Shown here piece by piece: positions 1 to 16,451 of a stretch of DNA of 44,670 nucleotides. The position numbers and the translations under genes are program-made. The stretch lies in assembly GCF_002868845.1 (NCBI RefSeq), contig NZ_PKUB01000015.1:62513-107182 (forward strand), read 5' to 3'. Position 1 is the first letter of the stretch. Each line of letters opens with the position of its first letter. The notes under the pieces were generated by a model, which saw only the letters and a list, made by a program, of their open reading frames with translations, ran no database searches and had not been told where the DNA came from. The stretch comes from Desulfuromonas sp. Lineage in GTDB: Bacteria > Desulfobacterota > Desulfuromonadia > Desulfuromonadales > BM501.

Positions 1-1112
1 CGCACCGGGTGGGCCATCGGGCCGCCGTCCTCGGGGAACTGGGCGTTGCGCAGGATGCGCACCTCCTCGATCCGCTTCACCGCCGGGCTGGTCATCGCCG
101 CGGAGAACTCCTGGTCGCGAAAGACGGTCAAACCCTCCTTGAGCGAGAGCTGGAACCAGTCGCGGCAGGTGACCCGGTTGCCCGTCCAGTTGTGGAAGTA
201 CTCGTGGCCGATGACCCCCTCGATCCCCTGGTAGTCGGCGTCGGTGGCGGTCTCCGGCTTGGCCAGGACGTACTTGGAGTTGAAGACGTTGAGTCCCTTG
301 TTCTCCATCGCCCCGAAGTTGAAGTCGTCCACCGCCACGATCATGTAGATGTCGAGGTCGTACTCCAGACCGAAGGTCTCCTCGTCCCACCGCATCGCGC
401 GCTTGAGCGAGGCCATGGCGTGGCCGCACTTGTCCCGGTTGCGCTCCTCGGTGTAGATGCGCAGGGCCACCGAGCGGCCCGAGGCGGTTTCGTAGCTGTC
501 CTCCACGCAGGCCAGGTCCCCGGCCACCAGGGCGAAGAGGTAGCCCGGCTTGGGGAAGGGGTCCTCCCAGGTGGCGAAGTGGCGGCCCCCCTCCAGGTCG
601 CCGCTCCCGACGAGATTGCCGTTGGCCAGCAGGACCGGGAACTTGACCCGGTCGGCGGCGAGCGTGGTCGAGAAGCGGGCCAGCACGTCGGGGCGGTCGG
701 GGTAGTAGGTGATCTTGCGGAAGCCCTGGGCCTCGCACTGGGTGCAGAAGTTGCCCCCCGAGACGTAAAGCCCCTCCAGGGAGGTGTTCTCCGCGGGGCG
801 GATCGCCGTGGTCACCTCCAGCGCGAAGGCCTGCGGCGGGTCGGGCAGGGGCAAGGTCAGGGTCTCCTCGTCGAGGCGATACTCGGCGGGGTCGAGCTCC
901 CGGCCGTCCAGGCGCACGTTGAGCAGGCGCAGCTCCTCGCCGTTCAGCACGAGGGGCCCGCCGGCCCCGGCCGGGTTGCGGCGCAGGGCGAGGCGCGAGC
1001 GGACCAGGGTCGTCTCCTCCGAGAGGTCGAAGTGCAGCTCGATGCTCTCGACGAGGTAGGGCGGGGGGGCGTAGTCGGCGCGGTGGATCGGCTGGGGCGT
1101 TTTCTCGGTCAT
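1..1112 (-). CDS. pepN: Aminopeptidase N (M1 family), 3' end beyond the window
   Basis: Zinc-dependent M1 aminopeptidase that removes N-terminal residues from peptides, normally cytoplasmic. About 370 codons are visible and the C-terminal part lies outside the left edge. The substrate-binding GAMEN motif is at residues 267-271 and the zinc site HEYFH at 303-307, with the third zinc ligand Glu in a KEG context near residue 326. The HEYFHNWTGN and KEGLTVFRD context is that of the E. coli PepN type. The start is the ATG at 1112-1110, preceded by a modest AGGA about 10 bases upstream. The gene is transcribed alone and leftwards from a promoter at 1226-1254. Identification is near certain. Whether the rest of the gene is intact cannot be seen. 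Confidence 0.95.
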   Translation of the reverse strand, partial: MTEKTPQPIHRADYAPPPYLVESIELHFDLSEETTLVRSRLALRRNPAGAGGPLVLNGEELRLLNVRLDGRELDPAEYRLDEETLTLPLPDPPQAFALEVTTAIRPAENTSLEGLYVSGGNFCTQCEAQGFRKITYYPDRPDVLARFSTTLAADRVKFPVLLANGNLVGSGDLEGGRHFATWEDPFPKPGYLFALVAGDLACVEDSYETASGRSVALRIYTEERNRDKCGHAMASLKRAMRWDEETFGLEYDLDIYMIVAVDDFNFGAMENKGLNVFNSKYVLAKPETATDADYQGIEGVIGHEYFHNWTGNRVTCRDWFQLSLKEGLTVFRDQEFSAAMTSPAVKRIEEVRILRNAQFPEDGGPMAHPV

Positions 1113-1225
1113 GGCTCTGAATCCTGGGGAAAGGGGGTTGCTGTTCGGCTAAGCGGGGGGGAGACCATATATGAGCGAATGCGAAGGGGCGAAGGTGCCC
1201 GCCGGGCCGCTCGCGCCCACCCGGA

Positions 1226-1266
1226 ACCATAGCGCAAACCGGGAAAATTATCAAAGGGATTGATAA
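1226..1266 (-). promoter_or_regulatory. pepN promoter with overlapping inverted repeat
   Basis: Read on the minus strand, a -35 TTGATA (1254-1249) and a -10 TATGGT (1231-1226) are separated by exactly 17 bases. The -35 sits inside a perfect inverted repeat, TTATCAA-N5-TTGATAA (1248-1266), which would suit a dimeric regulator blocking the polymerase. The orientation of the half sites is opposite to an FNR/CRP box, so I do not assign a regulator. The promoter call is fairly firm; the operator is inferred from symmetry. Confidence 0.55.
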
Positions 1267-1631
1267 TACAGGGTTTAATGAGTTCGGCTGCCCACCATTC
1301 GATGCCGTGCCAAGGGGGCTGGCGGGACGCTCTCTGTCCAAATGCACAGTCGCGGCACGTCCCAAATGCATCGCATTTTTACGGCTTCCCACGTGGAAGA
1401 CCTTGGATCCCCGGCGTATAGTAGGAACCATCAAAGGCCTGTTGTGGCAGGCGGGCCGACGAGACGGTTCTTCATCCTTCTCCTTTCCAAAACGATATAG
1501 AAAAAAACCTTCTTCAACCTTCCTTCGCGCGTCGTTTCTCCCTCCTGAGCGGCGCGCATTTTTTTTGCCCCCGCCCTTTCCCGTCCTCAGACTAAAGCAC
1601 CCCCGCAAGGGGACTTTCCGGGGATTATCCG

Positions 1632-1732
1632 TTGACTTTTGCCCCCCCGCCGTGTACAAGGTTAGAGTTCTAGAATCATATCTTCAGGATGGGACCTTCT
1701 CACCTTTTTTCTATTGACCCAAGGAGGATTGA
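1632..1732 (+). promoter_or_regulatory. Promoter and conserved leader of CTERM cassette 1
   Basis: TTGACT (1632-1637), 17 bases, TACAAG (1655-1660) is a good sigma-70-type promoter. The roughly 70-base leader that follows contains the palindrome TTCTAGAA and ends in AAGGAGG (1721-1727), five bases before the ATG. Almost the same 100 bases recur at 4333-4432 ahead of cassette 2, so promoter, leader and ribosome site were duplicated together with the genes. Confidence 0.65.
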
Positions 1733-3280
1733 ATGAACGGAAAGATCTGCGCACTTCTGGCCGCGCTACTGCTGCTCCTGACGGGGCACTCCCTGGCTGC
1801 CAATGTCGGCTACTACGACATGTCTTCACAGCAGGGGGTTAGCTCCCAGGCCGCTGTCATCACCACAGCCGGAGAGACCCCGGTACTGATAACCGACTTG
1901 TCCGCCGGGGATTTGGCCGGCATCGACGTGCTGTTCGTCCAGAACCCCAGCAATGGCAGCTATGGCTTTGAATACACCTCCCGCCTCGCGGACATCGAGG
2001 CGGCCGTCAACGCCGGGATGGTTCTGATCATCCACGACCGTTACGTCACTGCGGCTGAATCCATCCTGCCCGGCGGGGCGGGATTCACCATCCTCCGCGA
2101 TTTTACCCACAGCAGAGACATAGACGTCCTTGATGACACCACCCTCGTCACCGACGGCCCCGGCGGGATCATCAACGACACATCTCTGGACCTTGGCACC
2201 TCCTCCAGCCACGGCTACACGGAGGCGGCCAGCCTCCCCGGAGACGCGGTCCTTTTGCTGAGCACCACCGACCCGACCCACATCGTCACCTTCGCCTACC
2301 CCTTCGGGGCCGGCTGGGTCATCTACTCCACCATTCCCCTCGACTTCTATCTCAATGGGAGTGGCGGGATAAGAACCCAAATGCAGAATTACGCCGCCAA
2401 CGTGGTGGCCTATGCCGCCAACATTACCCCCTCGTTCCTCGCCGTCACCCCGGCCTCCGGCGACGAGGACACCGCCATTCCCCTCGACATTTCCCTCAAC
2501 CCCGACTTCCCGGACCTCGGCGACCTAGTCGTTCAGAGCATCGTCATCTCCGGGGTTCCCGACGGCGCATCCCTGTCCGCCGGCATCGACAACGGAGACG
2601 GCACCTGGGACCTCACCCTCGCGGAGCTCGACGGCCTGCAACTTTTCCCGCCTGCCGACTCCAACGTCGACATCACCCTGACCGTCACTGCCGAAGCTCT
2701 CAACGCCCTGGACGAATTGGTGACCGCCGTCCAGTCGCTCTTTGTCGACCTGATCGGCGTCGCCGACGACCCGACCCTTGCCACCCAGAACACCTTCCCC
2801 TTCGGCTTGCAGATTGTCGTACCGGTTGAGATCGAAGCTGAACTCACCGACACCGACAGCTCCGAAACCCTGACCGTCACCATCTCCAACGTCCCGGACG
2901 ACGCCTTCCTCTCCGCTGGCGTGAACATGGGCGGCGGCAACTGGCTGCTCACCCCCGCCGACCTCAACGGCCTGCGAATCGCCCTGCCCTTCCGGCTGCG
3001 CTACTACGTCAAATGGGATCTTGGCGTCGCCGCTACCGCCACGGAGGACGATGGTAGCGCCACGACCCTGATGGACACCATCAAAGTCATCTACCTCGAA
3101 GCTTTCATCGACGACGACACCGCAAGCGACGGCAACGACGACGGCACCGTGATCGTAGTCACCACAGACGGCGACAGCGGCGGCGGCTGCTCTCTCGGTG
3201 GCGCGGCGGGCATCGACCCGATGTTCCCCCTGCTCGCCTTCGGCGCCCTCGGCTACCTGGTGCGGCGGCGCAAAGACTAG
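1733..3280 (+). CDS. Secreted repeat protein with C-terminal sorting signal (JDVT-CTERM type), cassette 1
   Basis: 515 aa with a signal peptide (about residues 1-22). Residues 23-230 form a domain resembling a glutamine-amidotransferase/ThuA-like fold, with runs such as DVLFVQNPSN and GMVLIIHD, but I do not assign an activity. Two Ig/cadherin-like repeats follow (about 265-345 and 370-450) with the signature VPxGAxLSAG, then GxW, then a PAxLxGL segment, as in RTX-type adhesins. After an Asp-rich linker the tail starts with GGGCSLGG at 483 (Cys 486), then GIDPMFP, a short hydrophobic helix and Arg residues at the end. This Gly-Cys, helix, Arg layout is a surface sorting signal, and I match it from memory to the JDVT-CTERM class. 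The protease that probably processes it is encoded 5 bases downstream. The start is fixed by AAGGAGG. The protein is probably surface-anchored after cleavage; its ligand is unknown. Confidence 0.85.
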   Translation: MNGKICALLAALLLLLTGHSLAANVGYYDMSSQQGVSSQAAVITTAGETPVLITDLSAGDLAGIDVLFVQNPSNGSYGFEYTSRLADIEAAVNAGMVLIIHDRYVTAAESILPGGAGFTILRDFTHSRDIDVLDDTTLVTDGPGGIINDTSLDLGTSSSHGYTEAASLPGDAVLLLSTTDPTHIVTFAYPFGAGWVIYSTIPLDFYLNGSGGIRTQMQNYAANVVAYAANITPSFLAVTPASGDEDTAIPLDISLNPDFPDLGDLVVQSIVISGVPDGASLSAGIDNGDGTWDLTLAELDGLQLFPPADSNVDITLTVTAEALNALDELVTAVQSLFVDLIGVADDPTLATQNTFPFGLQIVVPVEIEAELTDTDSSETLTVTISNVPDDAFLSAGVNMGGGNWLLTPADLNGLRIALPFRLRYYVKWDLGVAATATEDDGSATTLMDTIKVIYLEAFIDDDTASDGNDDGTVIVVTTDGDSGGGCSLGGAAGIDPMFPLLAFGALGYLVRRRKD

Positions 3281-3285
3281 TTTCC

Positions 3286-3711
3286 ATGTGGCATGACAAA
3301 CAAATCGGGGCAGCCATTCTGGCTGCCCCGTTCTTTTTGGCCGGGCTCTACCTGGTCCACCCGGTCCCGCTCGATCTGTCGTGGCCCCTGCGGGAACCGG
3401 CCCGCTTCCTCCTGCCCGCCCTCGCCTACCCTGTTCTGGAGGAGGCCGCCTTCCGCGGCCTGATCCAGGGGGAACTGGTGAAACGCCCCTTCGGACGCCG
3501 CACCCTGCTCAGCCTGAGCGGGGCCAACTGGGCCGCAAGCGCCCTCTTCGTGGCGGCGCACTTCCTCTACCACTCGCCCCTCTGGGCCCTGGCCGTCCTC
3601 GGCCCCTCCCTGCTCTTCGGCCACTTCCGCGACCGTTATGACAGCATCAGGCCCGGCGCCGTCCTTCACGTCCTCTACAACACCGGGTACTTCCTGACCT
3701 TCGGGGCCTAG
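3286..3711 (+). CDS. mrtJ: CPBP-family intramembrane protease, probable CTERM sorting enzyme, copy 1
   Basis: 141 aa, small for the CPBP (Abi/CAAX-like) glutamic protease family and almost entirely membrane helices. The three family motifs are complete: EExxxR at Glu52, Glu53 and Arg57; FxxxH at Phe88-His92; HxxxN at His128-Asn132. It lies directly after a protein bearing a CTERM tail, as expected of a dedicated protease that cleaves and releases or re-anchors that tail in the inner membrane. By size and partner it fits the enzyme called MrtJ in the JDVT-CTERM system; the symbol rests on memory of that naming. The ATG has no clear ribosome site. An intrinsic terminator lies inside codons 7-18, so expression is probably well below that of the substrate. 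Family is firm; the pairing with JDVT tails is likely. Confidence 0.85.
   Translation: MWHDKQIGAAILAAPFFLAGLYLVHPVPLDLSWPLREPARFLLPALAYPVLEEAAFRGLIQGELVKRPFGRRTLLSLSGANWAASALFVAAHFLYHSPLWALAVLGPSLLFGHFRDRYDSIRPGAVLHVLYNTGYFLTFGA
3306..3338 (+). terminator. Intrinsic terminator inside the start of mrtJ copy 1
   Basis: A perfect 10-bp stem, CGGGGCAGCC (3306-3315) with GGCTGCCCCG (3321-3330), a 5-base loop and then TTCTTTTT (3331-3338). It starts 26 bases after the substrate stop codon and lies inside the protease reading frame. Most transcripts from the cassette promoter might end here, leaving a minority to encode the protease. It is repeated exactly in copy 2. Confidence 0.7.
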
Positions 3712-4432
3712 CCCCAAGACCCGGGTTCTCCTTCAGAAGCGACTCACCACGCCGTTCCTCCACGATCACCCCCGACAAGGGTGAGAGCAAGGCCACGGAC
3801 GGCAGCGGCGCCGCGACGACCCCGCGCGAATGCCCTTGCGACCCTGGCTGTCAATTCCGGAGGTGAGACCTCTCAGCGGGGGCCGATCGAATCCCCCTTC
3901 TTCAACTCAAGGATTTCGACAACATGCCTGCCACCCAAAAGCGCTCATCGGCCGGAGCGTCAGCGTTTTCGCCTTTGAGCTCCAGAAAAAACCGCCGAAG
4001 ACCTTTCCCTGCGCCGGTGACGGACAATGAAGGTAACCGCATGCCCGGTCAGCAATCTCCGCATGAAGATAGAATGGATGGTGGCCTGTGGACCCAACAG
4101 AAGATGGAAATAGTCAGGAAGGGGGCCGTTTAGATTTCAAGCAGGAGAGTGGAAAGGCGATGCAAAAAACGTTCGGTCCTAATCATGCGAAAGAAGTCTC
4201 GCCGCTCGACGCCGCGGGCCATGGCATGTTACGACAAGCTTGGAATATCGATGCGGCGTTGCGTGGCAGTGGATAATTCCAAACCAAAAGAGCCGCCAGT
4301 CATCCTCTCAGCTAGGTCCCTGACACGTTCCATTGACTTTTATCCCCCCGGCGTGTACAAAGTCAGAGTTCTAGAATCGTACCTTCAGGATGGGACCTTC
4401 TCACCTTTTTTAATTGAACCAAGGAGGATTGA
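3712..4432. other. Gene-free stretch between the two cassettes
   Basis: About 620 bases before the second cassette leader contain only short frames without ribosome sites or familiar protein features. Base composition is somewhat less GC-rich around 4020-4330. I found no terminal repeats or transposase remnants to explain the duplication. The last 100 bases are the copied promoter/leader. Confidence 0.55.
4333..4432 (+). promoter_or_regulatory. Promoter and conserved leader of CTERM cassette 2
   Basis: TTGACT (4333-4338), 17 bases, TACAAA (4356-4361), then a leader with the same TTCTAGAA palindrome and AAGGAGG (4421-4427) placed 5 bases before the ATG. It differs from the leader at 1632-1732 at only a dozen or so positions, so both cassettes are probably expressed under the same conditions. 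Confidence 0.65.
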
Positions 4433-6487
4433 ATGAACGGAAAGATTTGCGCACTACTGGCCGCGCTGGCGCTGCTTCTCGCCCTGCCTGCGACCACCCT
4501 GGCCCTGACCGGCGGGCCGGACAGCTTCGGCTACACCTTCATTGACAGCGAAGAGGCCGGCGGCCCGGCCTTCGAGTGGGAGGACATCGCCGCCACCGGC
4601 ACTCTCCTCCCCCTCGGGGACGACGAGGGTTCGCCCTTTCTCCCCCTTGGCTTCACCTTCAACTTCTACGGGATCGACTACACCGAACTCAAGGTCTCCA
4701 GCAACGGCTTTCTCGGGTTCAGCGACTTCCCCTCCTCAGGCTGCTGCTCGGCCGGCTGCTGCTCCGGCGACCCCATCCCGACCGCCGGCGGCAAAATCGA
4801 CAACCTCATCGCCGGCCTCTGGGACGACCTTGACCCGGCCAACGGTCAGACGAGCATCTACTACGAGACCCTCGGCACCACCCCCAACCGGCGCTTCGTC
4901 GTTCAAATCGACGACACCCCCCGCTGGCCCAACACCGGCTCGAACACCTTCCAATACATCCTCTTCGAGGGCAGCAACACCATCGTGGTCAACTACCTCC
5001 GCGCCGAGGTGGACAGCAACACATCCATCGGCGTCGAGAACGCCGACGGCACCGTCGGGCTCGCCTACCCCCTGGCTGCCGGAGAGGTCTACACCGACCT
5101 GGCGGTCCAGTACTGCACGAACATTGCCTGCGGCGGAGGCGGCGAACCGACCACTCTCAGCACGACCTTCGCTTCCAACAACAGCTTCCAGGGCAACATG
5201 TTCGACCTGACCAACGAGTCGGGACAGGCCATCGATCTGACCGGCGCCTTCGAAGGGAACTTCGACGGTGGTGCCACGGGCGAGGTGGAGATCTGGTACC
5301 GGGAGGGGACCTTCGTCGGCCATGAGAGCGACCCCGCAGGATGGACCCTACTTGGCCGCGACACACTGGTCTCTAATGGATTCAATGTCCCCACCCCCTT
5401 CGACGTCGGCGCCACCCTGACCATCGGCGCCGGCGAGACCGTCGGCATGCTCATGTACCTTGACGGAAGTCGCGGGGGGGTTAATTACACCAACGGTGCC
5501 AACAGCTACACCGACGGCACCCTGCGCATCACCACCGGCATCGGCAAGGGCGATACGGCTGCCGAACCGCCCGTCGGCGGAGGCACCTTCACCCCCCGCA
5601 CCTGGAACGGCACCGTCGAGTACACCACCGGGGACTGCTTCCTCCTGCTCACCAACGCCCGCGGCATGGAGGACACCCCTATCCCCCTCCACATCGCCCT
5701 GTCGCCCTGCGCCGCGACCCTGGTCACCCTCGACTCGGTCACCATCTCCAATGTTCCCGCCGGTGCCATCCTCTCGGCCGGCACCGACAACGGCGGCGGC
5801 AGCTGGACCCTCATCCCGGCCGAGCTCGCAGGGCTGTCCATCACCCCGCCGGCCAACTCCAACGTTGATTTCACCCTCGAGGTCACAGGCCACGCCACCC
5901 GCATTTCTGACAACGAGCCCTGCAACTGCAGTGGCGTCCTCGATGTCGACGTGGTCGGCGTCGCCGACCTGCCCCTGCTCAACGCCAGCAACAGCTTCAC
6001 CCTCGACTACTACACCGGCGACCTCGACCTGTCTGCCTTCCTCACCGACCTTGACGGCTCCGAGACCCTGGTCGTGACCATAACCGACGTCCCCGCCGGC
6101 TCGACCTTCTCCGCCGGCATCGACCACGGCGGCGGCATGTGGACCTTCGACCCCGCCGACCTGCCCGGGCTCAAATTCAAGCCGGCCCAAGCCCAATCGT
6201 ACAAAGTCAGTTACATGCTGACAATCACCGCCACCGTCACCGAGGACGACGGCGACACCGGTCAGATCGTTCGAACCATCAAGATTCGCGACCTCTCTTT
6301 CATCATCAATGATGACGACGGATACGTTGGCGGCAACGACGACGGCACGGTGACCGTGATCACCGTCACCAGCGACGGCGACAGCGGCGGCGGCTGCTCC
6401 CTCGGCGGCGCGGCTGGCATCGACCCGATGTTCCCCCTGCTTGCCTTCGGCGCCCTCGGCTACCTGGTGCGGCGGCGCAGAAGCTAG
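4433..6487 (+). CDS. Secreted repeat protein with C-terminal sorting signal (JDVT-CTERM type), cassette 2
   Basis: 684 aa. The signal peptide begins with the same residues as the cassette 1 protein. The N-terminal domain (about 28-230) has a beta-rich, nidogen-like look (GFTFNFYG, SSNGFLGF, GLWDDLDP) and contains a double cysteine pair, CC at 104-105 and 109-110. A second beta domain spans about 235-380. Two Ig/cadherin-like repeats (about 425-510 and 535-620) carry the same VPAGxxxSAG signature as the cassette 1 protein. An Asp-rich linker leads to GGGCSLGG (Cys 655), GIDPMFP, a helix and an Arg-rich end. The last 33 residues match the other substrate except at the extreme end. It is probably exported, processed by the protease encoded next door and displayed at the surface. 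Ligand and role are unknown. Confidence 0.85.
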   Translation: MNGKICALLAALALLLALPATTLALTGGPDSFGYTFIDSEEAGGPAFEWEDIAATGTLLPLGDDEGSPFLPLGFTFNFYGIDYTELKVSSNGFLGFSDFPSSGCCSAGCCSGDPIPTAGGKIDNLIAGLWDDLDPANGQTSIYYETLGTTPNRRFVVQIDDTPRWPNTGSNTFQYILFEGSNTIVVNYLRAEVDSNTSIGVENADGTVGLAYPLAAGEVYTDLAVQYCTNIACGGGGEPTTLSTTFASNNSFQGNMFDLTNESGQAIDLTGAFEGNFDGGATGEVEIWYREGTFVGHESDPAGWTLLGRDTLVSNGFNVPTPFDVGATLTIGAGETVGMLMYLDGSRGGVNYTNGANSYTDGTLRITTGIGKGDTAAEPPVGGGTFTPRTWNGTVEYTTGDCFLLLTNARGMEDTPIPLHIALSPCAATLVTLDSVTISNVPAGAILSAGTDNGGGSWTLIPAELAGLSITPPANSNVDFTLEVTGHATRISDNEPCNCSGVLDVDVVGVADLPLLNASNSFTLDYYTGDLDLSAFLTDLDGSETLVVTITDVPAGSTFSAGIDHGGGMWTFDPADLPGLKFKPAQAQSYKVSYMLTITATVTEDDGDTGQIVRTIKIRDLSFIINDDDGYVGGNDDGTVTVITVTSDGDSGGGCSLGGAAGIDPMFPLLAFGALGYLVRRRRS

Positions 6488-6492
6488 GCTCC

Positions 6493-6918
6493 ATGTGGCA
6501 TGACAAACAAATCGGGGCAGCCATTCTGGCTGCCCCGTTCTTTTTGGCCGGGCTCTATCTCCTCCACCCGGTCCCGCTCGACCTGTCCTGGCCCCTGCGG
6601 GAGCCGGCCCGTTTCCTCCTGCCCGCCCTCGCCTACCCGGTGCTGGAAGAGGCCGCCTTCCGCGGCCTGATCCAGGGGGAAATGGTGAAACGCCCCTTCG
6701 GAGGCCGCACCCTTCTCGGCCTGAGCGGGGCCAACTGGCTCACCAGCGCCCTCTTCGTGGCGGCACACTACCTCTACCACCCGCCCCTCTGGGCCCTGGC
6801 CGTCCTCGGCCCCTCGCTGCTCTTCGGCCACTTCCGCGACCGTTATGACAGCATCAGGCCCGGCACCATCCTTCACGTCCTCTACAACGCCGGGTACTTC
6901 CTGATCTTCGGGGCCTGA
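6493..6918 (+). CDS. mrtJ: CPBP-family intramembrane protease, probable CTERM sorting enzyme, copy 2
   Basis: 141 aa with the same length and motifs as the protease at 3286-3711 (EExxxR at 52-57, FxxxH at 88-92, HxxxN at 128-132). The two differ at about 12 positions, none of them in the motifs, so both should be active. It follows its substrate gene by 5 bases with only a weak ribosome site. The terminator-like hairpin in its first codons is retained base for base. Keeping two near-identical enzymes, each beside a different substrate, suggests either a recent duplication or a need for dose. Cleavage specificity is unlikely to differ, because the two substrate tails are practically the same. 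Confidence 0.85.
   Translation: MWHDKQIGAAILAAPFFLAGLYLLHPVPLDLSWPLREPARFLLPALAYPVLEEAAFRGLIQGEMVKRPFGGRTLLGLSGANWLTSALFVAAHYLYHPPLWALAVLGPSLLFGHFRDRYDSIRPGTILHVLYNAGYFLIFGA
6513..6545 (+). terminator. Intrinsic terminator inside the start of mrtJ copy 2
   Basis: The same 10-bp stem (6513-6522 with 6528-6537), 5-base loop and TTCTTTTT tract (6538-6545) as at 3306-3338. It lies in codons 7-18 of the protease gene, shortly after the substrate stop codon. Confidence 0.7.
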
Positions 6919-7001
6919 ACCTTCGCCCTGCGGAGGCGGCCTCAAACCAGGACCCGATCCCCCTCAAGGTCTATTCTGATCAGCATTGATCTTCCGTGGG
7001 G

Positions 7002-7033
7002 CCCTTCTCCCTGAGGGAGAGGGAAACCTTTTC
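7002..7033. terminator. Weak hairpin between convergent genes
   Basis: CCCTTCTCCC (7002-7011) and GGGAGAGGG (7015-7023) form a short stem with one bulge, followed on the plus strand by AAACCTTTTC. It lies between the second protease gene and the convergent glycosyltransferase-like gene and may end transcription from one or both sides. The T run is poor. Confidence 0.35.
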
Positions 7034-7066
7034 AGATCACCGCAATACTGACACTAATCTGCAAAT

Positions 7067-8962
7067 CTATTTCCCCATCCCCTCTTTCCGCATTGCCACC
7101 ACCCTCTCCAGCAGTTGCCGCACGGCGGCATCGTCCGGAGCAAACCGTAGCGCCAGACGCAGGTGCTCCTCCGCCTTCACGTACCGCCCCATCCCCATAT
7201 ACGCCCCGCCGAGCCCCTGATGCGCCTTGGCGTACTCGGGCTTAAGCCGGATGGCGGTCAGGTACTCGGCCGCCGCCTCTTCGAGCCGTCCCAGCCGGTG
7301 ATAGGCGATGCCGAGGTTGAGGTGGTTCCTCGCCGAGCGAGGAGCGAGGCTGATGGCGACCCGGTACTCGGCGATCCCTTCATCGGTCTTCCCCGCCTGA
7401 ACAAGGGCGGAGGCGAGGTTCCCGTGCAGCTCGTCGTACCCGGGGTCGAGTTCGAGCCCGAGGCGGTAGTGGCGGAGAGCCATGTCGAGTTTTCCCAGGC
7501 GATGGTAGGCGACGCCCAGGTTGTTGCTCAGGTAGGCGCTCCCGGGCCGCAGGCGCGAAGCGATCTTGAACTCGCCCAGGGCCCTCTCGAGGTCGCCGCG
7601 ACCGAGGAGCACCTCCCCGTATTCGCTGTGGGTCCGGGCCTTCTGAGGCGATTTGACGACCGCATCGCCCCAGAGGGTCGCCGGGTCCGCCCACACCTGG
7701 TTGCGCATGAAGGCGGCGGCGCCGAGGGCGAGGACCACCGCGGCCACCCCGATGACCCACGCCTTTTCAGGAATCCTGCGACGAAGCGCACCGGCACCGG
7801 CGGCGAGGGCGAGAGCGACCCCCGCCATGGGAAGGTAAAGGCGATGCTCGAACATGAGATCCCGAATGGGGATAACGCTCGACTCCACGGAAAGAGCGAG
7901 AAAGAAAAAGACGATGCCGAAGCCCGCCAAGCGACAGGCCGGGTTCGGGGCCCGATCGCCGGCAGGTGACTCCCCGTCCCCGGCGCGCACCCTGTAAAGC
8001 CACAGGGCAAGGCCGAGAAGGGCCGTGAGAAGAAGGAAGGGGAAGAAGACCTTCGGAGCAAAGAACGTGTCGTAGATCGCCTGATCGTGATCGATGTTCT
8101 GGCCGAGGGGGAGGAAAATCATCCCGACGTATTTGGCGACAACGGCGAACTGGGTCAGCAGGTAATCGGATCGACTGATCGCATCGGTCTCCCGGGCCAG
8201 CCTGTCCACGCTGGAGAGGAGTTCCCCCAGGGGCCTCTGCCCTCCCACAAAAGTGAGGCACGCTCCTCCTGTCAGCAGAGCAAAGGGGACCAGGGCCATG
8301 ATCCGTCGCCGGATGCCGCCCCGGAAGAAGGAGAACTCACAGAGAATCACGGCCAGGGGAAGGGTGAATGCGATCTCCTTGGTCGAGAGCGCCGCCCCGG
8401 CTGCGAGAAAAGAGAGCAGGAAGAGAAACCAGGTCCTGACCCTGCGCGAACCGTCGGCCTCCTGCCCGAGTCGGGCCCGCAGATAGAAGACCAGAGCGAG
8501 CAGGTAGAAGAGAGTCGCGAGAGAGGCGAAGCGCTGGACGACGTAGGTGACGGCCTGTGTCTGGAGAGGATGAAGGACGAAGATCAGCCCTGCGAGGCAG
8601 GCGACCGCGCCGCCCTCCACTGTTTTAGCTCCCCCGCCCATCAGGGATGTTCGGGCGATCGATCGACAGAGGGCGTAGACGAGCAGGGCGCAGAGGAGGT
8701 GGATCGCCAGGTTGACGACATGGTAACCGGAGACCTCGAGACCGCCTCCGCGGTAATTCAGGGCAAAACTCAAAAAGCCGAGAAAGCGTCTCGGGTTGGA
8801 ATCCCAGCCGGCTCCGCCGACAAAGTTTCCGAGATCCTTGATGACCGGGTTGTCGACAATGGCGTACTTGTCGTCGAAGACGAAGGGCGCGCCGAAGGTG
8901 TTGGCGTAGGCGGCGAGGCCGGCCAGGGCGATCAGCAGGATGTGCCAGGCAGTTCTCTTCAT
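7067..8962 (-). CDS. TMTC-like membrane protein with C-terminal TPRs (putative GT-C O-glycosyltransferase)
   Basis: 631 aa from the ATG at 8962. An in-frame TTG at 9001 exists but would start against the terminator hairpin. The N-terminal two thirds are about a dozen membrane helices. A periplasmic first loop carries FVFDDKYAIVDN, the acidic DD motif typical of GT-C enzymes of the PMT/TMTC family. Residues about 455-620 are five tandem TPRs of 34 residues. The layout resembles bacterial relatives of TMTC protein O-mannosyltransferases, which transfer a sugar from a lipid carrier to Ser/Thr of exported proteins. Substrate and sugar are not known. The gene lies just downstream of a lipoprotein gene with a Ser/Thr-rich linker, a candidate acceptor (inference). 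No strong promoter or ribosome site is visible, so readthrough of the terminator is possible. Confidence 0.75.
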   Translation of the reverse strand: MKRTAWHILLIALAGLAAYANTFGAPFVFDDKYAIVDNPVIKDLGNFVGGAGWDSNPRRFLGFLSFALNYRGGGLEVSGYHVVNLAIHLLCALLVYALCRSIARTSLMGGGAKTVEGGAVACLAGLIFVLHPLQTQAVTYVVQRFASLATLFYLLALVFYLRARLGQEADGSRRVRTWFLFLLSFLAAGAALSTKEIAFTLPLAVILCEFSFFRGGIRRRIMALVPFALLTGGACLTFVGGQRPLGELLSSVDRLARETDAISRSDYLLTQFAVVAKYVGMIFLPLGQNIDHDQAIYDTFFAPKVFFPFLLLTALLGLALWLYRVRAGDGESPAGDRAPNPACRLAGFGIVFFFLALSVESSVIPIRDLMFEHRLYLPMAGVALALAAGAGALRRRIPEKAWVIGVAAVVLALGAAAFMRNQVWADPATLWGDAVVKSPQKARTHSEYGEVLLGRGDLERALGEFKIASRLRPGSAYLSNNLGVAYHRLGKLDMALRHYRLGLELDPGYDELHGNLASALVQAGKTDEGIAEYRVAISLAPRSARNHLNLGIAYHRLGRLEEAAAEYLTAIRLKPEYAKAHQGLGGAYMGMGRYVKAEEHLRLALRFAPDDAAVRQLLERVVAMRKEGMGK

Positions 8963-9003
8963 GGAGCACAGGATACAGGTTTTATCGGAGCATGGCACCA
9001 AAG

Positions 9004-9034
9004 AAAAAAAAAGGGCCGCCCGAAGGCGGCCCTT
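9004..9034 (-). terminator. Strong intrinsic terminator after the large lipoprotein gene
   Basis: On the minus strand GGGCCGCC (9032-9025), a four-base loop, GGCGGCCC (9020-9013) and a run of nine T (9012-9004), a textbook terminator for the gene ending at 9065. Confidence 0.9.
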
Positions 9035-9064
9035 GCATTGCAGAATAGTTCTTCGTTCGAAACC

Positions 9065-12000
9065 TTACTCGGTCACGAACTCGGGACCAGGAGCGATCCG
9101 GGTAAGAGGATCGTTGATGTCACCGCCAGCGAATTCGCTGTAGAAGTAGGGGAACTGGGGAGTAACCCTATCCCCGAGCTCCAGCTCGCCTGCAGTGAGG
9201 TCGAACACCACGGTCAGAACCAGCCCGCTGGCGCTGAGGGTCGCGCCGTTGCCGGCCACGGTGGCAGCAAAGGCGTTGACCCCAACAGTGTCCTCGAGGA
9301 AGACGAACTGGGCATCAACCTGGGCCCCGGTCAGGGTGGTGACACCGGCGGCGAGGCCGAAGGTCACTTCCATGTCGAGGGGCTGGTTGAAGGAGTAGAC
9401 CAGCGAGAAGGTATCGTCCGTGCCAGCGACGAAGTCCGGGCTGTTGGTGGTGAGGGTGAGGGCACCGAGGATGTCAACAGCGGCGAACTCGGGAGTCGCC
9501 ACGACGCCGGTGAAGTCTTCCCAGGCGTTCCCCTCGAGGTCCTCGATCACGTCGGTGTTGAGAATGGCGTGGTTGAGGGCGCCGGCACCGCCGACGGCGT
9601 TGTAAGCCGCCTCAGCGTAGGCATAGTCCTCGGAGAAGAGGGTGGCCCGGCTGAAGTCCCCGGCGAGAGGAGCAGCGAGGTTCTCGAAGGGAATGTTGAG
9701 CGTCAGGCCGTCGACGCTCAGAGTGGTGTCGGCGAGGCTGATGACCGCGAAGTCCATGGCGTCGTCGGGGCTGGTCAGGACGACGAAGTCCGAGTCGGTA
9801 GGGGCAATCGCTTCGTTGAAGACGATGGTCAGACCGTCGTCGTCGAGGTAGGACAGGGTGACGAAAGGAGGCATGCGGTCGTCGATCACCACCCGGGCGT
9901 TGGCGCAGGTGGAAGCCACGTTGCCGGCTTCGTCAGCCACGGCGTCGGTGAAGTCGATGACGGCGTCGTCGTCGATGTTGGCGAAGGTGATGACGTTTTC
10001 GACAACCAGGGTCACCAGGTCGCGGTCCGCGTCATGGCCGAAGGTGTCGCCGTCGTCCTGCTGGAGGACGTCGTTGAGGGAAGTCGGCTCGGCGATCATG
10101 CCGACAGTGCCGTCGTAGCCGGCCACGATGGCGGCGCCGTCGGTCACGCTGATGTTCTCGGAGAAGGCCACGCCGACAACGCGGGAGAAGTCGTCCCAAG
10201 CGATGAAGGAGGTGGCGTCGTAGATGTCGGCTTCGAACTGGAACTCGTCGCCGACGACGTCGACATCGGGATCGTTGATGCCGTTGGCATCGTAGAGGCC
10301 GCGGATTTCAGCGGGCTCGGTGATGGAAGGAGCGGCAGCCTGGTCAGCGAGGAGACGGGGGGTGACCGGGAAGATGGGGGTGCCGCCCTCGGTGACGAGC
10401 AGGGTGCTCTCGCCGGAGAGCTCGGCGCCGTCGCCGTAAGCGTCGTCGCCGCTCACGCCGCCGGTGGTGACGGTGTTGCCGAAGCCGTAGCCGTTCTGGA
10501 GAACGGTGGTGGGCTCGACGATGTCAGCGATGATGATGCAAACCTCGGTCCCTTCGAAACCGAAGTCGTCCATGGGGGTGATGCAGACCTCGTCGCCGAT
10601 GGCGAAGCCGGTCAGGTCCATGGTCACGAGGTCGCCAGAAGCGGAAGCTTCGAAGTCACCGCTCTGGGTGGGGCCGTTGGTGCCAGTCTGGGACAGGGCG
10701 ATGACGGGGGTGCCGCCGATGACGCCCAGGTCCACAGAGGGAACGCCGGCGGTCAGCTCGATGAGGCCGTCATCGCTGTCGGTGTAGTAGATGCCGTAGC
10801 CGCTGGCGTTGGTGGCGGTGAAAGTCAGCTCGGTGGTGGTAACGTCGATGTCGCCGATGCCGCTGAAGGGGTCGGCGTCGTAGAGAGCCTGGAGGCGATC
10901 TTCGGCCTCGGGAGCGTTGAGCTGCTCCTCGGCGGTGGGGCAGTTGTCGCCAACCTGCGCGAGGACAGGAGCCTCGGCGTTGGTGTTGGCCTCACGGAAA
11001 GTGGCCAGGTTGACCTGGACGTACTGGTTGGCAACCACGGCAGGAGCGGCAGTGATCAGGTCGTAGTCGAGGGCGGCGTTCTCGTCCAGGAAGTTGGTGC
11101 CGTCGGTGAAGTCGGCGCGGAGGAGGTAGACGTTGAACTCGATGTCCTGGGCCAGGGCCTCGACGAGGGTCAGGGTCAGGATGTTGCCGTCAACCACGGC
11201 GGAGGCCACGTCAACGTAGGCGCCGGTGGTCAGGTCGCGCACGAGAACGGAGTTGGCGGCCACGGTGGCATCGAGGGGCTCGTTGAAGATGAGAACGATG
11301 GGCTGGTTGACGCCGTCGATACCCTTGGTGAGCAGGGCACGGTCGGCACCTTCGGCGAAAACGCCGGAAGCCGCAACCACGAAGGGATCGACCTCGTCAC
11401 CGGCATCGGTGATCTCGCAGATGCTGATGTTGCCCAGGTTGTTGACAACGTCGAAGGTCGAGACATCGGCGACGATGGTGGGGGTTTCGGAGGCGAAATC
11501 ATCGGTCTCGTAGTTGCCGACGAGCACGTCCAGAGCCGAATCGACGGGCACGCCGGAGACGGTGAAGAAGCCGTCGCTGTTGGTGAAAGCGACGTAGGGG
11601 GTGGTCTGGTAGAAGATGTCGTCGCTGCAGGGGTTGCCAGCGCACTCGGTGGCGACGAAGTCAAGGTTGACCTGCAGGTTGGCCAGGGCCTCGCCGGTGT
11701 CGCAGTCGCGCAGCCAGCCGGAAACCTCAGCGGCGAGCTCGGGCAGAACGGCGGTCACGGCCTGGGCCACGAAGCCGTCGACGAAGGTCACGACCTTGTT
11801 GTTGCCTTCGGAGACGACATCGCTGCCGGCAGCGTCGCCGGTGTAGTCGTTGCTGCCGTCGAACTGGGCGTAGGGATAGGCGGCCACGGTGGCCCCGAGG
11901 TAACCGGTGGGGGCGACCACGGTCACGAGGACGGCGGTCATGTCCTCGCTGTAGTAGTCCTGGTCGGCGCCGCGAACGTCAGCCACGGGCACGTCGGCGA

Positions 12001-12277
12001 AAGCGTACTGGCCGGCGGCGTTGGTGGTGGTGGTCAGGGTGCCGAGGATGCCGACGATCACGCCGGCGAGGGGGTTGCCGTTGCTGTCCACAACAACACC
12101 GGCCACGGAACCGACGCCCTGAGCGAGATCGAGATCCTGCCCGGTAGTGGAGGTGGAGGTGGAGGTGGTGTTGGATCCCGCGTCACCGTCGTCCCGGGAA
12201 CAACCCGAAACAAACAGCACGAGAGACAGGGCACAAACGAGAGTCAATGCCGTTGCCAGTCTAAAGTGTTTGATCAT
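9065..12277 (-). CDS. Large acidic Ig-like repeat lipoprotein
   Basis: 1070 aa. A lipoprotein signal ends in VSGC (Cys 26), followed by a Ser/Thr-rich linker (residues 34-46) and a carboxypeptidase-regulatory-like beta sandwich (GVVVDSNGNPLAGVIVG). A second such domain (about 180-260) has a DxxTGEALANLQV segment. Several Big_5/SbsA-type Ig-like modules follow, recognised by repeated phrases such as FNEPLDAT, FSENISVTDG, FNEAIAPTDSDF and FNQPLDMEVTF. The protein is very acidic and has few Lys or Cys. It is probably anchored in the outer membrane and exposed as a rod-like adhesin or surface layer component; no enzymatic domain is visible. The start is set by AAGGAG nine bases before the ATG. 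A promoter at 12665-12693 implies a leader of about 380 bases. The gene ends at a strong terminator (9004-9034). Confidence 0.8.
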   Translation of the reverse strand: MIKHFRLATALTLVCALSLVLFVSGCSRDDGDAGSNTTSTSTSTTGQDLDLAQGVGSVAGVVVDSNGNPLAGVIVGILGTLTTTTNAAGQYAFADVPVADVRGADQDYYSEDMTAVLVTVVAPTGYLGATVAAYPYAQFDGSNDYTGDAAGSDVVSEGNNKVVTFVDGFVAQAVTAVLPELAAEVSGWLRDCDTGEALANLQVNLDFVATECAGNPCSDDIFYQTTPYVAFTNSDGFFTVSGVPVDSALDVLVGNYETDDFASETPTIVADVSTFDVVNNLGNISICEITDAGDEVDPFVVAASGVFAEGADRALLTKGIDGVNQPIVLIFNEPLDATVAANSVLVRDLTTGAYVDVASAVVDGNILTLTLVEALAQDIEFNVYLLRADFTDGTNFLDENAALDYDLITAAPAVVANQYVQVNLATFREANTNAEAPVLAQVGDNCPTAEEQLNAPEAEDRLQALYDADPFSGIGDIDVTTTELTFTATNASGYGIYYTDSDDGLIELTAGVPSVDLGVIGGTPVIALSQTGTNGPTQSGDFEASASGDLVTMDLTGFAIGDEVCITPMDDFGFEGTEVCIIIADIVEPTTVLQNGYGFGNTVTTGGVSGDDAYGDGAELSGESTLLVTEGGTPIFPVTPRLLADQAAAPSITEPAEIRGLYDANGINDPDVDVVGDEFQFEADIYDATSFIAWDDFSRVVGVAFSENISVTDGAAIVAGYDGTVGMIAEPTSLNDVLQQDDGDTFGHDADRDLVTLVVENVITFANIDDDAVIDFTDAVADEAGNVASTCANARVVIDDRMPPFVTLSYLDDDGLTIVFNEAIAPTDSDFVVLTSPDDAMDFAVISLADTTLSVDGLTLNIPFENLAAPLAGDFSRATLFSEDYAYAEAAYNAVGGAGALNHAILNTDVIEDLEGNAWEDFTGVVATPEFAAVDILGALTLTTNSPDFVAGTDDTFSLVYSFNQPLDMEVTFGLAAGVTTLTGAQVDAQFVFLEDTVGVNAFAATVAGNGATLSASGLVLTVVFDLTAGELELGDRVTPQFPYFYSEFAGGDINDPLTRIAPGPEFVTE

Positions 12278-12664
12278 TCTTCGTTTCTCCTTCCTGATTC
12301 ATACGGATTTCATGCTCCTCCCAGATGTTGCCACAATGCAAACTCTTGAAGCGGACGGACCAGACCTTCAGTTCAAGTTTCGGAGGACCACAAAGCTAGA
12401 TTTTACTTCCTGCATACATACACATTGCACCTAAAACGCCTCGTCACCTTAGTCTGCCATCAACCCTCCTTTCCCTAATTTGTTTGTCTTCGAGAACACG
12501 GAAAACTTTGGCCTTTGCTAGCGTTTTTGACTTCGACCGCGAAATGCCGAACCGAACCGACATCCTCGCGGGTTTGCATTATCCGTACCCAATCACCCTG
12601 CGAGCCCACCCGGGAACCGGGACAAATAGCCGCTCGCCGGGGGGTCCGGGCGAGAATAGGAGGA

Positions 12665-12693
12665 ATACTATATAACACAGGGGGGTGTGTCAA
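12665..12693 (-). promoter_or_regulatory. Promoter of the large lipoprotein gene
   Basis: On the minus strand TTGACA (12693-12688), 17 bases, TAGTAT (12670-12665): a consensus -35 with a reasonable -10. An alternative TATAGT lies two bases nearer. Transcription would begin near 12657, about 380 bases before the ATG. Confidence 0.65.
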
Positions 12694-12900
12694 CACCAAA
12701 TGCGCCCTTTTTCGGCGCTCTGCTGTCCCATCCCCCGCCGGGGCCTCCCGGCCCTCCCAGGTTGTCGCAAAAAGACGCCATTTGACGCGCCCCTGTGCAA
12801 ATTTTCGGCAGCGCCGTCATCACGGCACGCCATCTCCCTCTTTAGAACATAACGTCCCATCGCTGGAATCGGTCGCACTATGCACATTCACACATTCTGC

Positions 12901-12932
12901 GCTTAATACTATTAAGCACCACAAATTGTCAA
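12901..12932 (-). promoter_or_regulatory. Second minus-strand promoter candidate with inverted repeat
   Basis: TTGACA (12932-12927) and TAGTAT (12911-12906) with a 15-base spacer, shorter than ideal. The -10 lies in a perfect inverted repeat GCTTAAT-N3-ATTAAGC (12901-12917). It could drive the lipoprotein gene from far upstream under repression, or a small RNA read leftwards from about 12897. Neither is shown. Confidence 0.4.
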
Positions 12933-13125
12933 CATCTTTTTCCCAACCCGCCCGAAAAGGCGGGATGCGCGCGACACTCTTTTCATTCGGGCAAAGATAG
13001 CGCACTTCCTCTCCATGTCAAGAGGGTCTGGGTGAAAAACCGCCACCGGGCGCTCCCCTCCTTTTCGGACGCCGCCCCCCGCGTCTTTAGCTCCCAGGCT
13101 CAAAAAAGTCCCCCGGCCTTTTCTC

Positions 13126-13154
13126 TTGACACCGTTTCAAACGATTGTTTTAAT
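13126..13154 (+). promoter_or_regulatory. Promoter of the tetR-RND efflux operon
   Basis: TTGACA (13126-13131), 17 bases, TTTAAT (13149-13154). The spacer carries the small palindrome AAACGATTGTTT (13139-13150) and flanking CAAACG copies, a plausible binding site for the TetR-family protein encoded just downstream (autoregulation inferred). Confidence 0.7.
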
Positions 13155-13210
13155 CAAACGCATGAACTACAGCGGCGAGAAATCCCCCCCCCTCCCGCGC
13201 GGAGGCGGCC

Positions 13211-13840
13211 GTGAGCGAGCCCGGGACCAAGGAACGCATCCTCGACGCGGCGGAGCGGCTCTTCGCCCGCGAGGGCTTCCACACCACCTCCCTGCGGGCG
13301 ATCACGTCCCGGGCCGGGGCGAACCTCGCGGCGGTCAACTACCACTTCGGCTCCAAGGAAGCCCTTCTGGAGGCGGTCTTCGAGCGCCGCCTGGTTCCTC
13401 TCAACCGGGAGCGGCGGGAACGGCTGGAGCAGGTGCTCGAGGCGGCCCGGGAACAGCGGCGCCCGCCCCTGGCCGAAACGGCCCTTCGCGCCTTTATCGA
13501 ACCGGCCCTGCGCTTTAGCGATTCGAGCCCGGGAGCCCGGGACTTCACCACCCTGGTGGGCCGCGCCCTGACCGAAACCGAAGACACGGTGCGGGACCTC
13601 TTCATCGGCCACATGGAACCGGTCTTCATCCTGCTCCTCGAGACCCTGTGCCAGGCCCTTCCCGACCGGCCTAAAAACCTGATCTTCTGGCGCCTGCGCT
13701 TCGCCCTGGGGGCTATGAGCCAGGCGATGTGCCCGGCCACCGAAAAAATCCCCGCCCCCGGGATCTACACCGCCTGCGAAACCGAGGAAATTATCGCCAT
13801 GCTGATACCCTTCGTCAGCGCCGGCATGGAGACACCATGA
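13211..13840 (+). CDS. TetR/AcrR-family transcriptional repressor
   Basis: 209 aa. The first 55 residues form the DNA-binding domain: TKERILDAAERLFAREGF, then TTSLRAITSRAGANLAAV and NYHFGSKEALL, a standard TetR helix-turn-helix ending in YHFxSKExL. The remainder is a helical ligand-binding and dimer domain, as in regulators of efflux pumps. The start is a GTG behind GGAGG with a 5-base spacer. The stop codon overlaps the ATG of the next gene (ATGA), so it is the first gene of the efflux operon. It probably represses the operon until an effector, perhaps a pump substrate, binds. The effector cannot be read from sequence. Confidence 0.92.
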   Translation: MSEPGTKERILDAAERLFAREGFHTTSLRAITSRAGANLAAVNYHFGSKEALLEAVFERRLVPLNRERRERLEQVLEAAREQRRPPLAETALRAFIEPALRFSDSSPGARDFTTLVGRALTETEDTVRDLFIGHMEPVFILLLETLCQALPDRPKNLIFWRLRFALGAMSQAMCPATEKIPAPGIYTACETEEIIAMLIPFVSAGMETP

Positions 13841-15267: not shown

Positions 15268-16451
15268 GCGCCAAGAACAAGTTCGTCCGCATCGCCCTGC
15301 CCCTGATCATCCTGATTGTCGGCTTCGTCGGCATGCGCACCTTGATCAACAGCCGCCAGGCACCGCAGAAGACCACCCCCGAACACCCCGGAGTCCTGGC
15401 GGAGGTGATAGCCGTGGAGAGCCGGGAGCGCCAGATCCGGGTTTCCGCCACCGGCACCGTCCAGGCCCGCCAAGAGGCGAGCATCACCCCCCAGGTGAGC
15501 GGCCGGGTGACGGGTCTGTCGCCCGACTTCGTCGCCGGCGGCTTTTTCCGAAAAGGGGACCTGCTCTTCGACATCGAGGCGGTGGACTACCAGCTGGCGG
15601 TCGACCGGGCGCAGGCCGCCCTGGCCAAGACCGAATACGACCTGGCGACGGTGGAAAGCCAGGCCCGGGTCGCCCGGCAGGAGTGGGACCGGCTGACCCT
15701 GGAGGACAAGGGGGAGCCGCCCCCCCTGGCCCTCTACGAACCGCAGATGAAAAACGCGCAGGCGGCGGTGGACGCGGCCCGGGCGGCCCTGGAGCAGTCC
15801 CGCCTCGACCTGAAGCGGACCCGCGTCTACGCCCCCTTCAACTGCCGGGTGCGCTCGGAGCAGGCCGACCTGGGCCAGTACGTGCGCGCCGGCGAGGGCG
15901 TCGCTGTCATCGCCGGGACCGACAGCGCCGAAGTGGTCGTGCCCCTGCCCCTGGAAGAGCTGCAATGGCTGAACATCCCCGGACCGGGCTCGGGGCAGGC
16001 CGGTTCGCCGGCAAGGGTGCGGATGAACGTGGGGGGCAGCACATCCGACTGGGAGGGCCGGGTCGTCCGCTCCCTCGGCGAGGTGGACGCCCGCGGGCGC
16101 ATGGCCCGGGTGGTGGTGGCGGTAACGGACCCCTACGGCATGGAGGAGACCGCCATGCCGGGCCGCCCCGCCCTGGCGGTGGGGATGTTCGTCGACGTGA
16201 CCCTGGAGGGCGAAACCCTTCCCTCGGTGATCGCCCTGCCCCGGCGCGCCCTGCACGAGGGCTCCACGGTCTGGGTGGCGGACGATAAGAACCTGCTGCG
16301 CTTCCGCACCGTAGAAGTGCTGCGCCTGGAGCAGGACGAAGTCCTGATCGCAGGCGGCCTGGAGAACGGCGCCCGGGTCGTCCTGACGGTCCTGCCGGGC
16401 GCGGCCGACGGCATGAGGGTGCGGCCGCTGGACGCGGGTGCCGCGCAATGA
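15264..16451 (+). CDS. RND efflux periplasmic adaptor (membrane fusion protein)
   Basis: 395 aa. A single N-terminal anchor helix (residues about 8-24) is followed by the HlyD/AcrA-type layout: first lipoyl half (TGTVQARQEASITPQVSG), helical hairpin (about 110-190), second lipoyl half (TRVYAPFNCRVRSEQADLG), then beta-barrel and membrane-proximal domains (PGMFVDVTL-like stretch near 300). It links the inner-membrane pump to the outer-membrane duct. It has an ATGA overlap with genes on both sides. Substrate is not predictable. Confidence 0.93.
   Translation: MSAKNKFVRIALPLIILIVGFVGMRTLINSRQAPQKTTPEHPGVLAEVIAVESRERQIRVSATGTVQARQEASITPQVSGRVTGLSPDFVAGGFFRKGDLLFDIEAVDYQLAVDRAQAALAKTEYDLATVESQARVARQEWDRLTLEDKGEPPPLALYEPQMKNAQAAVDAARAALEQSRLDLKRTRVYAPFNCRVRSEQADLGQYVRAGEGVAVIAGTDSAEVVVPLPLEELQWLNIPGPGSGQAGSPARVRMNVGGSTSDWEGRVVRSLGEVDARGRMARVVVAVTDPYGMEETAMPGRPALAVGMFVDVTLEGETLPSVIALPRRALHEGSTVWVADDKNLLRFRTVEVLRLEQDEVLIAGGLENGARVVLTVLPGAADGMRVRPLDAGAAQ

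Follow-up and report, generated by a model that had tools for sequence, protein, structure and literature searches.

One of the described systems close to the locus analysed here is the two-gene MrtJ/JDVT-CTERM system, which is the same protease-substrate pair (PMC11980579). In its accessible text, that report describes the gene neighbourhood and no RNA element, and it gives the occurrence of the system as sporadic in beta- and gammaproteobacteria, whereas the records examined here also include Sulfurovum and zetaproteobacteria. A literature search that covered few subscription journals listed no report of a terminator inside mrtJ, and the term JDVT-CTERM occurred in one of the papers covered.

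Three systems described in other genes resemble parts of this arrangement. In the SBP/ABC-translocator operons of Clostridia, an intrinsic terminator after the highly needed first gene lowers the expression of the later genes; according to the accessible text, the stem-loops lie in long intergenic regions, and a gene pair with a 24-bp gap is transcribed through (PMC9045158). At the locus described here, in contrast, the neighbouring genes abut, and the stem is part of the coding sequence. In programmed operon decay of E. coli, protective RNA structures lie in the downstream open reading frame (ORF) and their wobble positions are conserved; as far as the accessible sections go, these structures act by decay, have no U-tract and sit at a mean distance of 107 nt inside the ORF (PMC5927463). 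The copies studied here differ in having a U-tract, in lying 20 nt into the ORF, and in that, by record titles, at least two phyla besides the window's own group share stems at one homologous position. An attenuation-like mechanism, with a terminator before the pilus genes, reportedly controls the pilus operon of Streptococcus gallolyticus, where the proteins are other ones (PMC3894217).

Materials and Methods

The window, a stretch of 44,670 nt from Desulfuromonas sp., was analysed together with mrtJ orthologs from other genomes. Start codons are predictions throughout. The d'Aubenton-Carafa d formula, the stacking energies and the anti-Shine-Dalgarno sequence are used as given background.

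MrtJ above the family cut-off was found in the window's order in its own genome only and in none other of 136. It was found in 5 of 244 genomes of the window's class and in 3 of a sample of 395 from its phylum (both counts include the window's genome), in 18 of 78 genomes of a Sulfurovum genus group, in 21 of 78 from the class of a Mariprofundus genome, in 53 of a sample of 369 from the class that holds a Pseudomonadales genome, and in 16 of a sample of 399 from the order that holds a Rhodoferax genome. MrtJ orthologs above the cut-off were also found in a named genome collection, where a scan with the single window protein gave no relative and a second scan, with a three-sequence alignment, gave 41 related loci; one of the two patterns of this second scan, the N-terminal M[WF][HR]D.., may favour some N-termini. 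A separate search of 10 genomes added nothing useful.

From 167 candidate loci (L034-L048 and L062-L213), 132 were kept, which with the two window genes gave 134 non-redundant mrtJ genes. Loci below the family cut-off (L041-L048), loci that were partial, broken or without motif (L099-L102, L177, L195) and 21 duplicates were dropped; L038 and L039 (72 bits) and L212 (74.5 bits) were kept at or just below the cut-off. A gene was called coupled (n = 48) when a JDVT-CTERM ORF ended from -95 to +60 nt from the mrtJ start, and unlinked (n = 77) when no JDVT-CTERM ORF was found upstream; nine genes were classed as other. To decide on coupling, we used a small HMM made for this work from 44 C-termini. 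L069 was assigned to the coupled group by hand because its substrate ORF, which unlike those of its relatives has no stop before mrtJ, extends in a different frame into the region where mrtJ starts. For the register and profile tests, 76 of the 77 unlinked genes were available, one being gapped at the anchor column. W1 and W2 denote window mrtJ copies 1 and 2.

Results

The duplicated substrate-mrtJ unit

Two substrate-mrtJ units were identified in the window (Table 1). Both MrtJ copies scored above the curated NF033192 cut-off and thus belong to the MrtJ family, and both substrates scored above the NF033191 cut-off and have the C-terminal Cys motif, hydrophobic stretch and basic end of JDVT-CTERM proteins. 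No MrtJ or JDVT-CTERM match beyond these two pairs was found in the whole genome at E <= 0.001. The substrate stop codon, which for substrate 1 was read directly as TAG at 3278-3280, is separated from the mrtJ start by 5 nt in both units.

The entire unit is tandemly duplicated (1628-3711 and 4329-6918), the two units being alike in the leader repeat, the substrate start, the C-terminal tag and mrtJ, and divergent in the middle parts of the substrates. The leader repeats are putative promoter regions. The mrtJ copies differ at 28 of 426 nt, the first difference falling at gene nt 66, beyond the terminator. A strong Shine-Dalgarno sequence, AAGGAGG, lies 5' of substrate 1, and the computed anti-Shine-Dalgarno duplex is -10.0 kcal/mol for both substrate genes as against -1.7 for mrtJ1 and -2.4 for mrtJ2, which bears out an earlier remark that mrtJ has no clear ribosome site.

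Table 1. Features of the two substrate-mrtJ units (positions in the window; U-tracts, hairpins and A-rich stretch read directly)
Feature	Position	Strand	Remarks
Leader repeat 5' of pair 1 (putative promoter region)	1628..1710	+	90% identity over 83 nt to 4329-4411
Substrate 1, JDVT-CTERM protein, 515 aa	1733..3280	+	NF033191, 43.1 bits (cut-off 27), residues 482-514
mrtJ copy 1, CPBP-family intramembrane protease, 141 aa	3286..3711	+	NF033192, 99.4 bits (cut-off 75)
A-rich stretch CAAACAAAT before stem	3297..3305	+	inverted-repeat arms 20 nt, 85%
Hairpin 1, 10-bp stem and 5-nt loop	3306..3330	+	d = 39.2; all four third-position pairs Watson-Crick
U-tract TTCTTTTT	3331..3338	+	mrtJ codons 16-18, TTC TTT TTG
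Leader repeat 5' of pair 2 (putative promoter region)	4329..4411	+	90% identity over 83 nt to 1628-1710
Substrate 2, JDVT-CTERM protein, 684 aa	4433..6487	+	NF033191, 42.7 bits (cut-off 27)
mrtJ copy 2, 141 aa	6493..6918	+	NF033192, 101 bits (cut-off 75)
Hairpin 2, identical to hairpin 1	6513..6537	+	d = 39.2
Second U-tract TTCTTTTT	6538..6545	+	in mrtJ copy 2

A hairpin and U-tract in the first mrtJ codons

A preliminary description of this DNA, made from the letters alone, had claimed that a terminator-like hairpin, with a perfect 10-bp GC-rich stem, a 5-base loop and a T tail, lies within codons 7 to 18 of mrtJ. Direct reading of 3306-3338 confirmed each part of this claim, and the NF033192 match confirmed the identity of the gene; the identical second copy at 6513-6545, in the duplicated pair, had been overlooked. 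The hairpin reads CGGGGCAGCC-ATTCT-GGCTGCCCCG and its stem is made of nine G-C pairs and one A-T pair, while the predicted fold has 11 pairs, a 3-nt loop and an energy of -22.8 kcal/mol. It spans mrtJ from the third base of codon 7 to codon 15, beginning 20 nt past the A of the mrtJ ATG and at the 26th base after the substrate stop codon (25 nt between). Two sequence features of an intrinsic terminator are present, namely a stable G+C-rich stem of 10 to 11 bp with a short loop and, directly after it, a U-tract with 7 T in 8.

The score of the two copies was set against ten versions of the entire window in which dinucleotides had been shuffled in blocks of 1 kb, with both strands scored. Sites with d >= 39 appeared in none of the ten, and sites with d > 0 numbered 14 in the real window and 0 to 4 per shuffle. 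A plain count of terminator-like sites over positions 1-20000 gave no excess (16 versus 13.6 in shuffles, sd 4.0). What is unusual at the mrtJ site is the strength of the stem. The minus strand of the site also scores, more weakly (d 16.3), because of the A-rich stretch before the stem.

Elsewhere in the window, a 20-bp perfect inverted repeat with a 4-nt loop at 30079-30122 scores d 39.2 on the minus strand and 32.8 on the plus strand, and the top terminator-like sites are 9013-9032 and 37468-37496 (minus strand), with d of 77.8 and 77.6.

We consider it probable, at roughly 0.7, that the hairpin and U-tract form a selected, leaky intrinsic terminator, which is the 3' terminator of the substrate gene and keeps the protease below its substrate. 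The terminator would sit in the first mrtJ codons because the substrate and mrtJ genes abut. Most transcripts from a promoter before the substrate gene would end at the U-tract and yield abundant, hairpin-capped substrate mRNA, whereas a read-through minority would carry mrtJ, whose ribosome site is weak; little protease would therefore be made per substrate. From the sequence features we infer that transcription terminates here in the cell, and with it the extent of readthrough and the substrate/protease ratio.

Distribution among mrtJ orthologs

At the homologous site, 16 of 48 coupled genes had d > 0, where synonymous shuffling of these genes predicts 2.89; among the unlinked genes there were 5 of 77, with 0.75 predicted. 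The two groups differ at p = 0.00015 by Fisher's test with relatedness ignored. The 16 coupled genes make up seven clusters at 60% identity, which are the window, Sulfurovum, L064 (Pseudomonadales), L085 (a zetaproteobacterium), L096 (Rhodoferax), L125 and L143. When clusters are counted, d > 0 is weakly associated with coupling (at 60%, p = 0.04 by any member and 0.13 by majority; at 55%, 0.02 and 0.33). From record titles, we take the groups with the stem, besides the window's own, to be Campylobacterota and Pseudomonadota.

Across these 16 genes, a distance of 98-122 nt (108-113 nt in 14 of them) separates the end of the hairpin from the EExxFR codons, and the hairpin starts 20-60 nt 3' of the substrate stop in the 15 coupled d > 0 genes in which this distance was measurable. 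The other 32 coupled genes had d <= 0, including the same-phylum ortholog L040 and all five coupled genes of the window's class (L034-L036, L038, L039). The survey of other species that the preliminary description had proposed thus found stems with changed codons at the same place in many coupled genes, not in all; the refuting test that it had named, a lack of stems in orthologous genes, came out in its favour.

Folding energies in 12-codon windows, compared with synonymous shuffles, gave a peak of mean structure excess at this site, in coupled genes. Mean folding z there was -1.53/-1.59 (se 0.15) in coupled genes and -0.34/-0.24 (se 0.11-0.12) in unlinked genes, and in the remaining 23 windows along mrtJ it stayed between -0.39 and +0.33 in both groups. 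The difference held among clusters built at 55% identity from the C-terminal part, with the site excluded (18 coupled clusters, mean z -1.53, versus 34 unlinked, -0.16; p = 5e-5), and at 60% (23 versus 50, p = 0.0001); at 50% it was weaker (7 versus 10, p = 0.035). The minimum free energy lay below that of synonymous shuffles at p <= 0.1 in 29 of 48 coupled genes and 9 of 76 unlinked ones. An independent-pair test had only three pairs on supported branches, the tree (118 columns, 124 rows) being poorly resolved. Shine-Dalgarno strength showed no clear difference between coupled and unlinked mrtJ genes (p = 0.06) or between d > 0 and other coupled genes (p = 0.48). In the 12-codon stretch at codon +51 of the folding profile, 7 of 76 unlinked genes were at p <= 0.02, with a mean z of -0.15.

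Terminator or protective hairpin

Some genes have the stem and little or no U-tract. Coupled genes L034-L036 of the window's class have stems at the same codons of the first transmembrane helix (TM1), strong ones in L035 and L036 (14 pairs in L036), with no U-tract, and L105 and L109 combine a stem excess with a weak U-tract. In Sulfurovum, T accounts for 5.16 of the 8 bases that follow the stem, a T-richness that does not exceed synonymous expectation (98 versus 99.2). The slight T excess over all 48 coupled genes (215 versus 207.1, p = 0.035) stands beside a clearer one in the seven non-Sulfurovum coupled genes with a palindromic peptide (37 T in the eight bases after the stem versus 30.6, p about 0.001). 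The stem is thus the more widely selected feature, with a putative full terminator in some lineages, the window among them.

These observations bear on another reading, that the hairpin protects the 3' end of the substrate mRNA or serves its processing, as in programmed operon decay, and is no terminator, the T tail following from Phe, Val and Leu codons. The stem excess where the U-tract is weak (L105, L109) or missing (L034-L036) speaks for it, as does the accessible account of E. coli, where 17 of 26 such structures lie inside the downstream ORF with enhanced conservation of wobble positions (PMC5927463). The window copies have the hairpin in the downstream ORF and the wobble conservation of that system; the absence of a U-tract is found in some mrtJ orthologs, not in the window copies, which have TTCTTTTT and d = 39.2, unlike the E. 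coli examples in the accessible text. The T excess in the seven non-Sulfurovum genes also argues against it, and we judge it rather unlikely. The protective reading and that of a leaky terminator are not mutually exclusive across all lineages, and in the orthologs with a conserved stem and a weak U-tract the hairpin may mainly protect the 3' end of the substrate mRNA.

Terminators were also sought after mrtJ and behind other substrate genes. A site with d > 0 within 180 nt after mrtJ was present in only 3 of 48 coupled genes and behind neither window copy. Of 36 substrate genes fetched as having no mrtJ behind them, three lacked a stop codon in reach. Among the other 33, which include L240, in fact identical with the coupled locus L091, d exceeded 0 within 100 nt of the stop in four and within 250 nt in five. 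That every substrate gene carries an intrinsic terminator is thus unsupported, most of those without mrtJ having no detectable one. L199, from the search around Rhodoferax, has a long gap of 231 nt up to the chosen mrtJ start; its strong terminator (d = 48.1) is found after the substrate gene and 5' of the conserved protease codons, not inside them.

Spacing of the stem from stop and start codons

Measurements on E. coli terminators provide a yardstick for this spacing. In the accessible part of one report, tR2 is fully efficient beyond about 30 bp from a stop codon and has an efficiency of 0.12 to 0.8, depending on sequence, at 17-18 bp; 30 bp after an AUG it loses only about 10% of its efficiency when the ORF is translated, and a terminator within the first 100 bp of an ORF retains most of it (PMC4824070). 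By the tR2 yardstick, the window stem, 25 nt from the stop, would fall somewhat short of full efficiency, a spacing that fits a working but leaky terminator of the substrate gene.

The AUG-distance data from the same source argue against a large ribosome-driven feedback, such as the preliminary description had suggested. In a translation-sensing attenuator, ribosomes reinitiating at mrtJ would open the stem, raise readthrough and so feed back on mrtJ transcription. The stem does lie in translated codons, and a stop and start 5 nt apart permit coupling. Set against this are the loss of only about 10% in the translated E. coli case (PMC4824070, accessible text), the weak Shine-Dalgarno sequences of the window mrtJ genes, and the geometry of the site, by which a ribosome on the substrate stop or the mrtJ start would not cover the stem. 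We regard an attenuator as improbable here. Under the leaky-terminator reading, weak mrtJ initiation would, by extension from the E. coli report, also limit non-stop translation on terminated messages.

Pairing of third codon positions

The peptide encoded by the stem, GAAxxAAP (GAAILAAP in the window), is self-complementary at codon positions 1 and 2 (GGN GCN GCN ... NGC NGC NCC, complementary across frames) and leaves the third positions largely free. The protein dictates six of the ten stem pairs; the other four join third codon positions (columns 3/27, 6/24, 9/21 and 12/18 of alignment A4). In the window genes all four of these are Watson-Crick, for which the chance under their own codon use is 0.009 (W1) and 0.006 (W2); the probability expected for the GCA/GCT third-position match is 0.16 (W1) and 0.10 (W2).

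For the orthologs, 26 coupled genes with the palindromic peptide, 19 of them from Sulfurovum, were chosen by codon positions 1 and 2 only. Their third-position pairs were Watson-Crick in 64 of 104 cases, against 27.6 expected and a highest value of 42 in 1000 synonymous shuffles. Stricter nulls gave 35.1 (only early codons shuffled) and 34.7 (following base kept). The excess was present in the seven genes outside Sulfurovum (23 of 28 pairs versus 8.6) and with one gene per 60% cluster (28.2 versus 11.3 over 10 clusters). When the 3' arm was slid by 1-2 codons, the counts came much nearer to expectation (17, 30, 36 and 28 pairs versus 20.1, 28.1, 27.5 and 23.0). In alignment A4, which holds these 26 genes in 25 distinct rows and in which the choice of rows biases positions 1 and 2 and not the third positions, 9 of 10 pairs change on both sides, a value reached in none of 500 shuffles.

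Little excess was seen in the other 22 coupled genes (30 of 88 pairs versus 26.9) and none in the unlinked genes as a whole (95 of 304 versus 91.9). The five unlinked genes with the palindromic peptide had 12 of 20 pairs versus 6.1, an excess despite the lack of coupling. Six of these 12 come from L127 and L133, found in the class search around Mariprofundus, which are unlinked and have no substrate ORF upstream, yet have full-length stems with d > 0; their neighbour may have been lost, or the hairpin may serve their own transcript.

These counts leave a very small chance that the stem is a by-product, arising without selection from the self-complementary TM1 peptide GAAILAAP. The peptide does fix six of the ten pairs, and synonymous shuffles of the window genes still reach d > 0 in 16% (W1) and 11% (W2) of cases, but third-position pairing is far over expectation in coupled genes and not in unlinked genes overall, the structure excess is confined to the hairpin position, and the four pairs of the window genes would rarely arise by chance.

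The palindromic peptide is itself unevenly distributed: 26 of 48 coupled genes encode it, as do 5 of the 76 unlinked ones. It is conceivable, and we put it forward tentatively, that the RNA element has shaped the protein, selection for the hairpin having pushed TM1 towards GAAxxAAP where mrtJ lies behind a substrate gene. Against this stand the origin of 19 of the 26 genes in one Sulfurovum group and a modest association at cluster level (p 0.02-0.04).

The start of mrtJ

The first 20 residues of MrtJ can be aligned with the N-terminal ends of seven orthologs found in the window's class and phylum, several of which have the AAP motif there; the most similar, L040 (37% identity), shares the D, A, P, F, A and G positions. 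Position 3286 is taken as the predicted start because of this alignment and because a start at TTG 3337 would remove TM1, and the alignment likewise upholds the earlier suggestion that the stem encodes the start of TM1. A true start at TTG 3337, which would make the terminator merely intergenic, could appeal to the lack of a clear Shine-Dalgarno sequence at ATG 3286 and to an NF033192 match that begins only at residue 46, but is hardly credible given the matching N-terminal residues and the cut that it would make in TM1.

Discussion

The hairpin and U-tract occupy mrtJ codons, the element is conserved at the same codons in part of the orthologs, its third positions covary, and it is linked to adjacency with the substrate gene. 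That the hairpin is preserved while silent codons change suggests an arrangement for much substrate and little enzyme. Terminators that set ratios within operons are already known, as are protective hairpins in the downstream ORF, both as described in the accessible text of the respective reports (PMC9045158, PMC5927463). What appears to be new is an element of terminator type that is encoded together with a membrane helix, occurs at the same homologous position in bacteria far apart from one another, can be followed by silent-site pairing and is tied to the upstream gene.

The locus offers a testable case of a control element that is contained entirely in a coding region and reveals itself only by the pairing of silent codon positions, which in turn depends on the upstream gene. 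It also carries a warning that the terminators of abutting genes may be overlooked inside the next ORF, and the contrast between coupled and unlinked orthologs could serve for other abutting substrate-enzyme pairs. If the element has indeed shaped the peptide, one 25-nt stretch would act as a membrane helix in the protein and as the expression valve for a sorting enzyme in the RNA, and at least two phyla would have kept or re-evolved it. For the family, the finding suggests how two-gene sorting systems may hold an intramembrane protease scarce relative to its substrate.
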